This document shows positions 20,856 through 28,155 of a stretch of 36,860 nt of DNA, in pieces (the first letter of the stretch is position 1; every line of letters starts with the position of its first letter). The DNA is from Spirulina sp. Its GTDB lineage: Bacteria; Cyanobacteriota; Cyanobacteriia; Cyanobacteriales; Spirulinaceae. The translations under genes were made by a program, and so were the position numbers. The notes under the pieces are model-generated. The model saw only the letters and a program-made list of their open reading frames with translations. It searched no databases and was not told where the DNA came from. The DNA lies in assembly GCA_011390265.1 (NCBI GenBank), contig JAABSU010000006.1, positions 1 to 36,860 on the forward strand, in the 5' to 3' direction.

Positions 20856-22655
20856 TTAAATTTCATAGCTAGAGGATTGGAGCGTAAACATTTGGGCATA
20901 GAGGCCATCCTGGGCCATTAACTCCTGATGGCTGCCCATTTCACGAATTTTGCCCCCCTCTAATACCACAATTCGATCCGCCATTCGCACCGTGGAAAAG
21001 CGATGGCTGACTAAAAAGGTGATTTTTCCGGCGGCCAGTTGGCGGAATCGTTGGAACAGATCATATTCGGCGATCGCATCTAAGGCCGCCGTCGGTTCAT
21101 CTAAAATCAAAATTTGGGCATCACTCATAAAAGCACGGGCTAAACCCACTTTTTGCCACTGCCCCCCCGACAATTCCCGCCCCCCCGGAAAAATCTTGCC
21201 CAGTATCGTATGATAGCCCTGATCAAACTGGCTAATCATCTCATCAGCCCCCGCATCAATGCCCGCTTGGCGGATCAGTTTGAGATTGTGATGCGCTTGA
21301 ATATTGCCAAAACCGATATTATCAGCAACGCTTAAATGATAGCGAGCAAAATCTTGAAAAATAATCCCGACATTTTGCCGGAGTTCATTTAAATTCAACT
21401 GTTGTAGCGGAATATCATCAATCGTAATTTCTCCAGCACTGACATCATAAAAGCGCGTTAAAAGCTTAAGAAGCGTTGTTTTTCCTGCGCCATTTATTCC
21501 CACTAAAGCAATACTTTCTCCTGGCTTAACCACTAAGTTTAAATCCTTTAAGCTCGTTTTTTTTGCCCCTGGATAGCTGAAGCTGACCCCTTTAAATTCT
21601 AAGCCTTTTTGGATAGAGCTTGGAAAGGGGAGAGGATTTTCAGGGTTTTTAACATAGGGTTCTAAGGCTAAAAAATCAAAAAATTGGCTCACATAAAGAT
21701 TAACTTCATACAAACTGGCAATATCCTCTAACATTCCCTGCATTGCCCCCTGAGCTTGGCGAAATGCCCCTGCATACATTGTCAGTGAACCAATGGTAAT
21801 TTGGCTCATTAGGGTTTCCATCACAATCCAACTATAGGTTAGATAAAATCCCACTTTTGAAAGTAAATTTGATCCTGTTTTTGCCCAAGCCTGTTGAGAA
21901 GAAATCTCTTCTGCTTCACGATTAAACCTGAGCCTGACATTATACCATTGGCTTAAGAGGTGATCTGTTAAATTAAAGAGCCGAATTTCTTTCGCAAAAT
22001 CTTGATGGGTTAAAATTCGTTGTAAATAATCGGCAAACCGACCGCTTTGGGTTTGTCTACGAAGCACTTTAAAGCGTTTTCCTGAAAATTTTACCCCAAT
22101 CAAAAAAGCAGGAATAGATGTGAGCAATAACAGTAACGTTGCCAGGGAGCTAAAGCTAATCATTACACCCAGAAGCGTGAGCAACTTAATGCTTTGTCCT
22201 AAAAAGCTGGTGAAACTCGCCAGCGCCCGCACGGGGTAGGTGCTCCCACTTTGCTGGGCACGACTCAGTAGGTCGTAGAATTTGGGAATTTCATAGTGGG
22301 CTAAATCTAAGCGGGTAGCTTGGCGGAGGAGGATATTACTGGCATAGAGGGTGAAGCGATCGCTCAACAATTGCCCCCCATAGGTGGAGAGTTCTTTTAA
22401 AATATCGGTGAGCAGCGTTAAGGTGAAAGTAGCCACCACCAACATAAACACGCCCGACCACAGGCTAGAAGGTTGACCAATGGTGGCTAAAATGCGGTCA
22501 ATGGTTAGTTTTCCCACATACAACTGGAGGGCAGGCAGTACTGATGCGCTAAAAGTTGTCAACAAGGAAATGAGTAGCCACTTCGGACTTGCCGACCAAA
22601 CCAAACGAAGGAGTCGGGGCGTGGTGGAAAGTACTGCAAAAAAGCGTAATTTCAC
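20856..22655 (-). CDS. ABC exporter, fused membrane and ATPase domains (599 aa)
   Basis: Half-transporter: six-helix membrane domain (about residues 15-320) and an ATPase domain with Walker A GINGAGKTT, Q-loop FQDFARYHL, signature LSGGQ, Walker B ILILDEPTAALDA and H-loop LVSHRF. It should dimerise and export a lipid-linked, peptide or polysaccharide substrate. It lies downstream of two sulfotransferase genes on the same strand, with a 283-bp gap holding repeats and a weak TATAAT-like box, so it may have its own promoter. The neighbours suggest export of a sulfated product, but the substrate cannot be read from the sequence. Codon and base use look more AT-rich than in the flanking genes. Confidence 0.88.
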   Translation of the reverse strand: MKLRFFAVLSTTPRLLRLVWSASPKWLLISLLTTFSASVLPALQLYVGKLTIDRILATIGQPSSLWSGVFMLVVATFTLTLLTDILKELSTYGGQLLSDRFTLYASNILLRQATRLDLAHYEIPKFYDLLSRAQQSGSTYPVRALASFTSFLGQSIKLLTLLGVMISFSSLATLLLLLTSIPAFLIGVKFSGKRFKVLRRQTQSGRFADYLQRILTHQDFAKEIRLFNLTDHLLSQWYNVRLRFNREAEEISSQQAWAKTGSNLLSKVGFYLTYSWIVMETLMSQITIGSLTMYAGAFRQAQGAMQGMLEDIASLYEVNLYVSQFFDFLALEPYVKNPENPLPFPSSIQKGLEFKGVSFSYPGAKKTSLKDLNLVVKPGESIALVGINGAGKTTLLKLLTRFYDVSAGEITIDDIPLQQLNLNELRQNVGIIFQDFARYHLSVADNIGFGNIQAHHNLKLIRQAGIDAGADEMISQFDQGYHTILGKIFPGGRELSGGQWQKVGLARAFMSDAQILILDEPTAALDAIAEYDLFQRFRQLAAGKITFLVSHRFSTVRMADRIVVLEGGKIREMGSHQELMAQDGLYAQMFTLQSSSYEI

Positions 22656-22741: not shown

Positions 22742-22771
22742 GCGTAGGGGCAAAAATTTTCGCCCCTACGC
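22742..22771. repeat. Inverted repeat with GTAGGGGC arms
   Basis: Perfect 10-bp arms GCGTAGGGGC / GCCCCTACGC around an A/T loop. The GTAGGGGC core recurs in a larger hairpin at 34520-34575, so it is a dispersed repeat of this genome. It could fold as RNA between the ABC gene and its upstream neighbour. Confidence 0.7.
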
Positions 22772-22938: not shown

Positions 22939-24408
22939 CTATACAAACATTGCTTCATCAATGACTTGGGCTTCCGCATTGAGCAGAGACTTCAAGAGCG
23001 ATTGTTTTTTGATATAGGGAAACGGTTGATCCAACTGTTCTAACCCTAAGAATGGACAGAGTTTATCCCAACCTTCTCCCGCCCCAATATTGAGGACTAA
23101 CAGGGATTCAGGTCGATCTGCAAAATAATCCAACGTGTTTTTATAATGCAGATCATACACATAGGACATCCGCTCACGGTTGAACTCATAGCAGCCATAG
23201 ACTGCACTTCTTAAGAAACGCCGAATCTGAAAATGGAGTTCCTTTTCAATGTGCTTGTTTTCATCAAAGGCAGGACGATTAAACCAGTGTTTTTGCAGCG
23301 ATGTGAGCCAGCTTTCCTTATCCCGCACTGTTAAAATAAATTTACTGCCGGGAAAAAGTTGATCCAGTTGGGGATAAAAAGCAGAAACGGTAATGTCGGT
23401 AATGCCATCAAAATGATCCAACAGTGAAAACTGATAATGACCTTCGCTTAACTCCCGTAACGTGGTTTCATCTTCAGGGTAATGAATAACCTTGAAGCCC
23501 AAGATATGTAAGGCACTGGTGAGGCTTTTTGTTCCGGTGCGGCTCAATCCCAAGCCAAAGATTTTATGGGGGGAACTGGCTTCTGCCGGTGGTTCAAGAG
23601 TCCCTCCTCCCACCTGTACCAGTTGCCATGACCAGATTTTTTTCGTCTGCTGGTCAATTTCGGCTGGGGTACATTCTGGTTGCGGGGGGAAATCTAACTG
23701 GGAGATGGCACGTTCGGCAATTTCTGGAAGATGGACAATATAATCGTCAATTTCAGCGGGGGTTGAATGTTGGGGAACGGCTGCGCGGGTTTGGGCGATC
23801 GCCAACTTGGCAATTTGGAAATCGACATCCTCAATGTGTCGATCCCAATACTGCTCCGCCGCATCTAATTCCCGACGATTTTCTTCCGTGCGGCTCCGCA
23901 GTTCCCGCAGCGCCATCTTGGCATAAACATGATCATAACGTTGAAAATAATCATGCAAAATCCGGAACGTTTTAAAATGCTTATTGGCTTTCATTCGAGA
24001 AAGGGCAATAGAGCGAAGCCGCGATTCCGGGCGAAGAACGTATTTTTCATCGTTTTCCGGGGGTTTAACCTTCTGCATCAACCGCACCACATCCGTGCGT
24101 GTAATATGAACGCCTTGGTGAATATGACCTCGAAACTTATCTAAAACGTAACAATCCACATAGGGAAAATCATTGCGTTGCAGGAAAGACTGCATATTTT
24201 CCATCATCAAACAGTCTGCATCCATGAACACGACAAAATCGCAATCATAGTCAATCTCTAGCATCTTCTGCACAGCCGCTGAAAAGGGGCGCACATTTTC
24301 AATAAGATGCACTTGATTGGGTTGAATTTGTTTGATCGCTAAGTCCAGGGCAATATCACTGGTGCGCTCGCCAATTGTCCGAAAAACGAGGTCAATTTTT
24401 TTGTTCAT
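22939..24408 (-). CDS. Glycosyltransferase-like / sulfotransferase fusion (489 aa)
   Basis: The first about 160 residues resemble a GT-A glycosyltransferase core, with a DxD metal/nucleotide-sugar motif at D63-A-D65 (FVVFMDADCLMM). A helical linker follows (residues 160-275). The C-terminal about 210 residues resemble a Sulfotransfer_4-type domain: PAPS 5'-phosphosulfate loop GLSRTGTKSLTSAL (residues 287 on) and 3'-phosphate segment ILTVRDKESW. One polypeptide could add a sugar and sulfate the product, or one domain could be non-catalytic. It ends 283 bp upstream of an ABC exporter and follows a second sulfotransferase by 9 bp, suggesting a sulfated glycan or glycolipid pathway. The fusion is not one I recognise. 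Confidence 0.72.
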   Translation of the reverse strand: MNKKIDLVFRTIGERTSDIALDLAIKQIQPNQVHLIENVRPFSAAVQKMLEIDYDCDFVVFMDADCLMMENMQSFLQRNDFPYVDCYVLDKFRGHIHQGVHITRTDVVRLMQKVKPPENDEKYVLRPESRLRSIALSRMKANKHFKTFRILHDYFQRYDHVYAKMALRELRSRTEENRRELDAAEQYWDRHIEDVDFQIAKLAIAQTRAAVPQHSTPAEIDDYIVHLPEIAERAISQLDFPPQPECTPAEIDQQTKKIWSWQLVQVGGGTLEPPAEASSPHKIFGLGLSRTGTKSLTSALHILGFKVIHYPEDETTLRELSEGHYQFSLLDHFDGITDITVSAFYPQLDQLFPGSKFILTVRDKESWLTSLQKHWFNRPAFDENKHIEKELHFQIRRFLRSAVYGCYEFNRERMSYVYDLHYKNTLDYFADRPESLLVLNIGAGEGWDKLCPFLGLEQLDQPFPYIKKQSLLKSLLNAEAQVIDEAMFV

Positions 24409-24417
24409 GTTGTTTAC

Positions 24418-25287
24418 TCAAGAGTTCCACTCAAAAGATTGATTGATTTCACCAGCCAAGCGTGCAAACGTTTCTTTTTGCTCCTCAGATAGTTCAGTTT
24501 GCCAACGTAGATCTAAGACAATTTCAGAGTTGTGGCTTTGGTAATATTGGCGATTGTGGGGAGACATGCGACCCAAAAACCGATCCTCAGCATTGGCTTG
24601 GCTTTGGGCAACCAAATACTGGGTTCCATTATTCCCCCCCAATACATGATACTCGGAGTTACCAAAGTTGGGCATTGTCGGTTCATCGGCGATCTCTAAA
24701 AAATCACACAAACGCCTTAACACTTCATTGGTATTTACCGCTAAATCTTCGTAGTGAAGAATCATTTTGGATCCGGTAAATTCATCAAACAAAGTTTGAG
24801 CTTTGTGGATATTTTCTAGCCAATTTTGGATGATCTCTGTGAAATCTCTTTCTGGGTACTTCCGGCGATAGGAATTCACGACACCGCGACCATCACGTTG
24901 GAGGAACACTAAGTGAGGTTGGGCGGTTGTTGACTTTAGGGCATTCCATTGGTTGCGAATCCAATGAACCCCGGAAGTAGAATCAATCATCAAGGTTTTT
25001 GCTTGATGCTGCTTTTCCCAGATGCGTTGAGCCAGTTGCTCATAAAGATCCTGCTCTGGGTTGAGGGCAAGTTCTCCCCAGATGGGACAGTCAGTACCAC
25101 AAAACTTGCAAAAACGTTTGTGAGGGGGAGCATTTTCTTTGTGAATATATTGGCTTTTATTCCCTTCTCCACAAAAAAAACTCGTGGAGTGATTGCCCAA
25201 TAATAGTCCTAATAAGGTTGAGCCAGAGTGACCCGTGCCCGCAATAAAACAAACTTTCCGATTAATTCTTTCTTCTGGGTGCTTCAA
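24418..25287 (-). CDS. Sulfotransferase (PAPS-dependent type, 289 aa)
   Basis: N-terminal P-loop-like PAPS motif AGTGHSGSTLLG (residues 16-27) and downstream 3'-phosphate-binding segment LQRDGRGVVNSY, in the classic order of sulfotransferases. Four cysteines cluster early (C60 to C68: FCKFCGTDC) and might form a small metal site or a disulfide; this is not a standard feature. The gene runs directly into the fusion gene with a 9-bp gap. The region upstream is AT-rich and holds a palindrome at 25321-25335. The acceptor cannot be read from the sequence. Confidence 0.85.
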   Translation of the reverse strand: MKHPEERINRKVCFIAGTGHSGSTLLGLLLGNHSTSFFCGEGNKSQYIHKENAPPHKRFCKFCGTDCPIWGELALNPEQDLYEQLAQRIWEKQHQAKTLMIDSTSGVHWIRNQWNALKSTTAQPHLVFLQRDGRGVVNSYRRKYPERDFTEIIQNWLENIHKAQTLFDEFTGSKMILHYEDLAVNTNEVLRRLCDFLEIADEPTMPNFGNSEYHVLGGNNGTQYLVAQSQANAEDRFLGRMSPHNRQYYQSHNSEIVLDLRWQTELSEEQKETFARLAGEINQSFEWNS

Positions 25288-26393: not shown

Positions 26394-26783
26394 TTACTCG
26401 TCGTCGTCAGAACCATTCAAGGGCTTGAGGTGAATGTGCTTTCGCCCTAAGGTGATTTCAAATTCATCCCCTGGATTGAGACCCATCTTTCTGGTATAGG
26501 CTGAACCAATCAGCAAATTGCCGTTGGACTGAACGGTGATGCGATAGCTTGCTGAACGGCCACCGCGACCATTGCCACTGCCGGAACCATCTAAAACAAT
26601 TCCTTCCGCTGAAATCAGGGCTTTGAGGAATTTCATCATATTCACCCGCTCGATGCCGTTCTTGGTTAGGGTGTAATAACCACAGGCTTTCGCCTTTTCA
26701 TCTTTACTCAGGCTACCGAGTTCTTTGACTTTGTTGACGAGTTCTTCGCCCGTCAGGGGGGTTGGAGTGGGATTTTTAGGCAT
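26394..26783 (-). CDS. cyAbrB-type transcriptional regulator (129 aa)
   Basis: The C-terminal half is the cyanobacterial AbrB-like DNA-binding fold (SASYRITVQSNGNLLIGSAY, KMGLNPGDEFEITLGRKHIH). The N-terminal half (PLTGEELVNKVKELGSLSKD, CGYYTLTKNGIERVNMMKFL) is the cyanobacteria-specific region. The paralogue type resembles cyAbrB2, a global regulator of carbon, nitrogen and fermentation genes in Synechocystis, from memory of length and the NMMKFLKALI segment. A Ser/Gly-rich hinge with an acidic C-terminal tail is visible. It has a long leader with a strong hairpin and several palindromes, which suggests layered control. Confidence 0.88.
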   Translation of the reverse strand: MPKNPTPTPLTGEELVNKVKELGSLSKDEKAKACGYYTLTKNGIERVNMMKFLKALISAEGIVLDGSGSGNGRGGRSASYRITVQSNGNLLIGSAYTRKMGLNPGDEFEITLGRKHIHLKPLNGSDDDE

Positions 26784-26814
26784 TAATAACTTGGGATAAT
26801 TCAGTGATAACGCT

Positions 26815-26858
26815 GGGGATCGTTGCTGATGTTGTCTGGGCCATCAACAACGATACCC
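26815..26858. promoter_or_regulatory. Hairpin in the leader of the cyAbrB gene
   Basis: About 15 base pairs: GGGG-ATCGTTG-TGAT against ATCA-CAACGAT-CCCC, with one mismatch and one bulge. It lies 32 bp upstream of the regulator's ATG, so it may be in the 5' leader. Two small palindromes follow upstream (ATGCTG...CAGCAT near 26868 and TGGACTGTGATCCA near 26894). Confidence 0.5.
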
Positions 26859-26934
26859 CACTAACAATGCTGCAATGACAGCATGACAATCATGGACTGT
26901 GATCCATCCATCAAACTACAATCTATCATAGTTG

Positions 26935-27080
26935 TTGACACTCCCCGACCTAAAGGCACGGGGATTCTCAGTTCGTTGGGAGTCCATTGACCTTACCCTC
27001 CTTGAGCTTCTTGACCGTGTGTCCCACGGCTGCAAGTCCTCTGTTCTTCACCACTTGAGCAGCAGCTACATCTCGATTCG
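26935..27080 (-). ncRNA. Predicted omega-RNA scaffold at the tnpB 3' end
   Basis: In this family the guide RNA covers the end of tnpB and the right end of the element, and its guide is the sequence just outside. Here the guide would start CAACTATGATAG on the minus strand (plus-strand 26915-26934). The scaffold zone, including the CCCCG hairpin, is well conserved in the remnant at 33266-33410. Length is a guess; no transcript evidence exists. Confidence 0.5.
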
Positions 27081-28155
27081 TTGTGTAGCCACATTCCGGG
27101 CATTTATGAACTCGGACTGATAGATCTTTTTTGACAACGGCCGAGCATTGAGGACATTCTTGGCTCGTGCCTGCTGCCTCAACCTTCGCAAAATAGACAC
27201 CACGTTTCCAGCACACCCATTCCTGGATAGAAAGGTAGCTCCCCCACGCTGCATCTAGGCAGTGTTTACCGAGCATCCCCCTCGCTAACCCTTTCAGATT
27301 TAGCTTCTCCACAAACACCATCCCCGCTTGTTCACAAAGATGATGAGCTAGCTTAAACTGAAAATCCTTCCGGGCATTAGCTAACTTTTCGTGGTGTCGA
27401 GCAATCTTCTTCTGGAGCTTGAGCCATCGACTCGACCCCTTTTTTCTCCGCTTGAGTTGACGTTGCAGCGATTTCAGCTTGCGTTGTCCTTTCACAAAAA
27501 ATCGGGGGTTGGCGATCAACTCACCGGCAGAAGTTGCTAGATAGCTTTCAATGCCCACATCTACCCCTAGCGGTTCCCCATGGGGCTGCACTTCTGGCAC
27601 ATCGACATCGGACTGAAATACAATCAGCGCGTAGTAACCTGAAGCCCGCTTGACCACACGGATCTGCTTGGCCTCAAATCCTTCGGGGACGGGTCGAGAC
27701 AGTCGCATCTTGACCAAACCAATCTTAGGCAGGTTGACGCGATTTCTTTCCACCACTCCTTTATTAAGTTGAGGAAAAACGAATGACCGCATTCGCTTTT
27801 TGAACCGTGGGAAGCCATGGCCCCGTTCCCACATCGCCACAAATGCTGCATCCAGGGTTCTCAATGTCTGTTGCAAGACATGGGTATGAGGACGTTTCAG
27901 TTCAGGAATGACCTTTTTGGCTACTGCTAGTGATTTGCACTGACTGGCAAAGGTGGGGGCTTTCACATCGGCAGGGATAATGTATTCCCGGTCGATGGAA
28001 CAAGCATTGACGGGGGACTTACGAGAACGTGCCCAATCCTTACGCTCGGCTAAAGCATAGTTATAGACTTTCCGGCAGATGGCCAGCCAGTCTTCGATAA
28101 CCGCTTCCTGCTCAAGCGTGGGTTGTAGCTTGTACTCGTAGGTGATGTTTAGCAT
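26968..28155 (-). CDS. tnpB: TnpB RNA-guided nuclease (395 aa)
   Basis: The RuvC residues are all present: D199 in GVDVGIE, E283 in VFVEKLN and D362 in NRDVAAAQ. The zinc-finger cysteines C334, C337, C352 and C355 are in place. The N-terminal helix-turn-helix start (MLNITYEYKLQPTLEQEAVI) and the arginine/lysine-rich helix (KLKSLQRQLKRRKKGSSRW) are typical. There is no frameshift, so the protein is probably active as an RNA-guided DNA endonuclease that keeps copies of the element in the genome. It has a single internal ATG start near the left end. Confidence 0.93.
   Translation of the reverse strand: MLNITYEYKLQPTLEQEAVIEDWLAICRKVYNYALAERKDWARSRKSPVNACSIDREYIIPADVKAPTFASQCKSLAVAKKVIPELKRPHTHVLQQTLRTLDAAFVAMWERGHGFPRFKKRMRSFVFPQLNKGVVERNRVNLPKIGLVKMRLSRPVPEGFEAKQIRVVKRASGYYALIVFQSDVDVPEVQPHGEPLGVDVGIESYLATSAGELIANPRFFVKGQRKLKSLQRQLKRRKKGSSRWLKLQKKIARHHEKLANARKDFQFKLAHHLCEQAGMVFVEKLNLKGLARGMLGKHCLDAAWGSYLSIQEWVCWKRGVYFAKVEAAGTSQECPQCSAVVKKDLSVRVHKCPECGYTTNRDVAAAQVVKNRGLAAVGHTVKKLKEGKVNGLPTN

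Follow-up and report, generated by a model that had tools for sequence, protein, structure and literature searches.

To our knowledge, only a small number of prokaryotic enzymes for the synthesis of sulfated glycans have been described. A cyanobacterial pathway that has been worked out is that of synechan, encoded by the xss cluster of Synechocystis 6803 (PMC8205485). The locus described here, carried on a 36,860-nucleotide stretch of DNA (the window) from a Spirulina-like cyanobacterium, has in common with xss the presence of two sulfotransferases from distinct subfamilies and a predicted glycosyltransferase function. However, the xss cluster is large and holds eight separate glycosyltransferases along with Wzx/Wzy/PCP components, its exporter type differs from that found here and no fused glycosyltransferase–sulfotransferase is described for it (PMC8205485). 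Such a fusion, the protein F, is the central feature of the present locus. The whole C-terminal domain of F, with its catalytic loops kept, corresponds to PF17784 chains of known structure [the Schistosoma oxamniquine-resistance sulfotransferase (PDB code 4mua), a bacterial enzyme (9kf1) and SgdX2 (8y9p)], but these are single sulfotransferase domains, whereas that of F is fused behind a module resembling a GT-A glycosyltransferase. The open-access literature searched describes neither such a fusion nor the pairing of F with the adjoining sulfotransferase S in archaea, in keeping with the earlier note on this DNA, which had known of no described cluster with this layout. The parts come from known families; what appears to be new is their fusion, together with its conserved pairing with S and its presence in Asgard archaea.

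Table 1. Positions of the genes, protein regions and hairpin of the module in the window.
Feature	Positions	Strand	Remarks
F, full ORF	22939-24408	-	489 aa; ATG at 24408, stop at 22939
F, N-terminal module (residues 1-165), probable GT-A core	23914..24408	-	DAD 63-65, RGxIHxGVHI 93-102, RPES 126-129, HD 152-153
F, middle helical connector (residues 166-278), variable	23575..23913	-	Identity drop between clades; predicted helices
F, C-terminal PF17784 (Sulfotransfer_4) PAPS sulfotransferase	22939..23574	-	PF17784 profile; intact loops
S, separate PF13469 (Sulfotransfer_3) sulfotransferase	24418-25287	-	289 aa; TTG start at 25287, stop at 24418
A, MsbA-like ABC exporter half-transporter	20856-22655	-	599 aa; PF00005, E 2.7e-32
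Hairpin in the F–A gap	22742..22771	.	gcgtaggggcaaaaattttcgcccctacgc; read in the sequence and in the predicted fold

The reading of F as a 489-residue fusion of a sugar-transfer-like and a sulfotransferase domain, made in the earlier note together with its coordinates and strand, was confirmed by the ORF and by the position of the PF17784 match, and the second sulfotransferase of a different type and the neighbouring exporter proved to be S and A. S and F lie on the same strand, 9 bp apart; the homologue of S in Spirulina subsalsa begins with ATG at the place of the TTG in the window. A lies 283 bp downstream of F, with the hairpin between them. The predicted fold of this gap (279 nt folded), which includes the hairpin, beats those of shuffled sequences (z of -4.4); a repeat search of the window did not list the hairpin. 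The S–F transcript may be separated from A by this element. Near the module (26394-28155), a gene for a TnpB-like OrfB protein (395 aa) stands beside one for an AbrB-like regulator.

A single copy of F is present in the host genome, which is 83% complete; the nearest named relative of the host is S. subsalsa FACHB-351, in which F is 90% identical. Full-length relatives of F, 50–90% identical, are found in more than 20 loci, and comparison of the window copy with near relatives gives dN/dS values of 0.04–0.14, so F is not a chance ORF. Except in three broken or truncated copies (G133, G001 and G218), every cyanobacterial F consists of the N-terminal module followed by the sulfotransferase. A search with an N-terminal profile found F in 25 of 389 cyanobacterial genomes of the host's order and in few genomes of a wider sample of the phylum.

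The N-terminal module is probably a weak but consistent relative of the GT2/GT-A glycosyltransferases, a fold assignment that rests on motifs and profiles. The window protein alone matches PF00535 (Glycos_transf_2) at residues 15–75 with an E value of 0.07 and 13.5–14.7 bits, below the Pfam cut-off of 23.3, and 11 of 22 members of the F family match this profile at E ≤ 0.1 (best 1.9e-5). Across the 22 sequences the DxD metal/donor motif (D63-A-D65) is invariant, a G-loop-like RGxIHxGVHI stretch is present and Gly99 and His152, 53 residues apart, are invariant; in the GT-A prototype the corresponding Gly-to-His spacing is 51 (Taujale et al., PMC7185993). The motifs follow the order of the GT-A core in the same study: DxD, Gly, Glu and C-terminal His. 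The module differs from PF00535 and the GT-A fold in its very short core and at the xED position, where P-E-S/T replaces E-D, the Asp giving way to Ser or Thr; some inverting and retaining GT-A families are also listed without this Asp (PMC7185993). The motifs are largely retained in a distant relative that lacks a sulfotransferase (L155), with which F shares the invariant RPES and HD-x-x-Q of residues ~115–165. In better-diverged pairs this core is the most constrained part of F, with dN/dS of 0.04–0.06. Taken from the sequence, the module is quite probably a glycosyltransferase.

Comparisons of structure and of profiles were less informative. AlphaFold models of F (four sequences) and of residues 1–240 (three sequences) had pLDDT values of 43 and 49, the alignments being too shallow to inform, and the strand–helix order of the low-confidence model is compatible with GT-A. 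Foldseek matches of the first model to tRNA synthetases were at chance level and were set aside. In hhalign comparisons with GT2 proteins of the host genome the module came into register at the DxD motif with a probability of only 9–14%, which is not significant; controls were near zero. A search for solved relatives of the module gave none even at an E value of 10.

Two further occurrences of the module were seen. The distant relative in L155 (1489-3492; genome G596) is fused to a class I/II aminotransferase, with a methyltransferase-like ORF upstream, and shows the GT-like module in a different architecture. A seemingly decayed, frame-broken remnant (L205, 7858-8252; 51% identity over 43 residues) lies on plasmid p1 of Streptomyces sp. 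BHT-5-2, and because of this remnant the module may once have been present in actinomycetes.

The long helical linker noted earlier holds in part: residues ~166–278 are a variable connector, and residues ~115–165, with their invariant motifs, belong to the glycosyltransferase-like module. The connector is 27–32% identical between clades, against 60–71% for the N-terminal core, and helices are predicted for residues 161–240 with pLDDT values of 68–88. The sulfotransferase domains are clearer. PF17784 covers residues 282–469 of F (E 2.3e-38, 132.6 bits against a cut-off of 22.8), with an intact 5' P-loop (LSRTGTKSL) and 3'-phosphate loop (VRDKESWLTS) in the window; by sequence the domain matches solved Schistosoma and bacterial sulfotransferases, and its nearest named solved relatives include SgdX2 and CurM. 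S matches PF13469 (E 1.5e-11, 45.4 bits against a cut-off of 27), also with intact loops (HSGSTLLG and RDGRGVVNS). PAPS can be made in the host and in four archaea that carry the pair, since an APS kinase, the PAPS-forming enzyme, scores above its cut-off in the host genome and in all four of the archaeal genomes. Extra sulfotransferase genes, of a distinct PF17784 branch, lie near F at L052 (7923-9278), L053 (9317-9895) and L059 (11524-12387), together with a PF00685 gene in L052, and some modules have three or four sulfotransferases.

The ORFs of about 30 loci were clustered for a comparison of gene order. S, F and the exporter occur together in ten of them (the window, L014, L046, L047, L048, L053, L054, L056, L064 and L066); this recurrence in varied chromosomal settings agrees with the small shared pathway suggested in the earlier note. 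F and an ABC exporter occur without S in seven loci (L058–L063 and L065) and also in L015, where the 5' side is cut; S and F occur without an exporter in L049–L052 and in archaea; and F stands without either in L055. Most F-bearing cyanobacterial genomes have S next to F or close to it, and orthologues of S adjoin F in both cyanobacteria and archaea; G183 and G325 have an intact F and no S orthologue. The association of the three genes is not general synteny, because the other neighbours vary between lineages. The minimal unit is F and S, as neither the archaea nor five of the cyanobacterial loci have the exporter.

An ABC exporter adjoins F in 18 cyanobacterial loci, drawn from two subfamilies that are 24–29% identical to each other; identity within them is 72–92% for the Spirulina type and 59–98% for the second. 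The exporter in the window is 75–89% identical to its counterparts in other Spirulina-type loci. Replacement of the exporter by an unrelated subfamily, with its position beside F kept, provides good evidence that export matters to the module. Both types are single-chain TM+NBD proteins and have MsbA/HepA-type exporters among their best-scoring families, but all of their scores fall below the curated cut-offs and two unrelated subfamilies serve F. The best models for A are TIGR02204 and TIGR02203, and for the second type MsbA-like lipid exporters; against TIGR02203 (MsbA) A scores 276 bits and the second type 485–528 bits, compared with a cut-off of 602. A PAP2 phosphatase follows the exporter in five loci from three genera (L060, L061, L062, L063 and L065).

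An unexpected occurrence of F and S was on a contig of a Lokiarchaeota MAG (L016). Among 195 genomes drawn around this MAG four carry F, and in all four S adjoins it in convergent orientation, with the 3' ends facing. The flanking genes include SHMT (two genomes), phosphoglycerate kinase, a class I tRNA synthetase and a GCD14-type tRNA methyltransferase (one). A misbinned cyanobacterial contig was considered and is unlikely, because three further genomes hold the pair, one of the contigs is 312 kb long and the flanks carry SHMT and GCD14-type genes; the probable archaeal origin is read from this flank content rather than from trees. Among viral contigs only the sulfotransferase domain of F has relatives, with none for the N-terminal domain or S; at least 117 stretches of IMG/VR contigs (L074–L153) carry PF17784-type relatives, the best 41–44% identical to the F domain, and part of these contigs may belong to host genomes. 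No match came from GenBank phage records, and plasmids gave only relatives of the sulfotransferase domain and the decayed Streptomyces fragment.

F and S very likely make a sulfated sugar compound. A fuller proposal, which we hold somewhat more readily than not, is that they glycosylate and sulfate one acceptor and that cyanobacteria export the product through the MsbA-like exporter. The N-terminal domain of F would transfer a sugar from a nucleotide-sugar to the acceptor, with a metal held by the DAD motif and probably by His152; the C-terminal domain would then transfer sulfate from PAPS to the glycosylated product, and S would add a second sulfate, at another position or on another intermediate. 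In cyanobacteria the product would cross the inner membrane through the neighbouring exporter. The acceptor would most likely be a lipid or a lipid-linked sugar, giving a sulfated glycolipid: such a product is favoured over a free polysaccharide because the exporters score best against MsbA-like models, though below cut-off, a PAP2 phosphatase stands beside some of them and polymerization genes of the xss type are missing among the annotated neighbours. Counting against this proposal are the 283-bp gap with its hairpin between F and A, the archaea and the five cyanobacterial loci in which F has no exporter beside it, and the fit of MsbA-like models to exporters of peptides and drugs as well. 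It is conceivable, if rather doubtful, that the product, a sulfated glycoconjugate new to science, is a sulfated surface glycolipid common to cyanobacteria and Asgard archaea through gene exchange of the pair. The two-gene set, with sugar and sulfate transfer fused, is a compact starting point in the search for a new sulfated molecule, possibly including a sulfated surface molecule in Asgard archaea, the archaeal relatives of eukaryotes.

The absence of polymerization genes also bears on the suggestion that F and S are accessory enzymes decorating an extracellular polysaccharide or capsule, such as synechan or spirulan. Cyanobacteria do make sulfated exopolysaccharides, the two sulfotransferases of distinct subfamilies in xss offer a parallel and other cyanobacterial sulfotransferases are found in partial Wzx/Wzy- and ABC-type clusters (PMC8205485). 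The annotated neighbours of F, however, include no Wzx flippase, Wzy polymerase, polysaccharide co-polymerase or run of glycosyltransferases, the archaeal pairs likewise lack such genes and the exporters are single-chain MsbA-like half-transporters rather than of the ABC-2 capsule type, which makes this explanation rather unlikely. Sulfotransferases are common tailoring enzymes, and a small, scattered module with an exporter, whose nearest solved relatives include SgdX2 and CurM, might instead tailor a small-molecule or peptide natural product that is sulfated, glycosylated and then exported by the ABC transporter; this is distinctly unlikely, as no scaffold-building gene (NRPS, PKS or terpene synthase) was recognized among the annotated neighbours and Asgard archaea carry the same core pair.

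Losses within F bear on the respective roles of its domains. Eight F sequences have Cys, Gly, Gln or Asn in place of the Arg of the P-loop SRTGT, a residue that by its position we take to be the counterpart of the Lys that is catalytic in the PKSGT loop of classical sulfotransferases, and the tree requires two changes. One lineage is a clade of six members (support 98/94), and a search of their genomes for S orthologues at an E value of 1e-15 gave none; as a single event in one clade, this joint loss of the Arg and S is suggestive only. The other consists of L064 and L066, which keep S and carry directly downstream a separate PF17784 gene with an intact SRTGTKSL, 61% identical to the domain in the window. 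L056, the sister of these two, shares the extra gene, and the loop in its own F is altered with the Arg retained. From the separate gene in all three and the degenerate loop of F in L064 and L066, the sulfotransferase domain appears to have been copied out in this line and then lost inside F. By a simple counting method applied to few pairs, dN/dS in the Arg-loss lineages is ~0.04–0.06 for the glycosyltransferase core and 0.12–0.20 for the sulfotransferase, compared with 0.04 for the latter between the window and S. subsalsa.

That the N-terminal region is an inactive glycosyltransferase-derived domain that binds an existing acceptor and presents it to the sulfotransferase is very improbable: it would accord with the lack of a Pfam match over the cut-off in the window protein, of a solved relative and of the xED Asp, but the metal and His motifs do not vary among 22 sequences and are retained where the sulfotransferase is degenerate, which is not expected of a domain merely serving the latter. 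Because the glycosyltransferase core is conserved while the sulfotransferase degenerates, with S lost alongside in one clade, we read sugar transfer as the constant step and sulfation as optional, S and the sulfotransferase domain of F probably belonging to one sulfation programme. Lineages whose sulfotransferase is degenerate offer a ready comparison of a sulfated with an unsulfated product.

A natural disruption of the sulfotransferase end of F is found in a closed genome (G011; L047, 9494-14322), where an IS200/IS605-type TnpB element, itself broken into two ORFs, interrupts the gene near residue 428. This element is related to the TnpB gene at positions 26968-28155 of the window.
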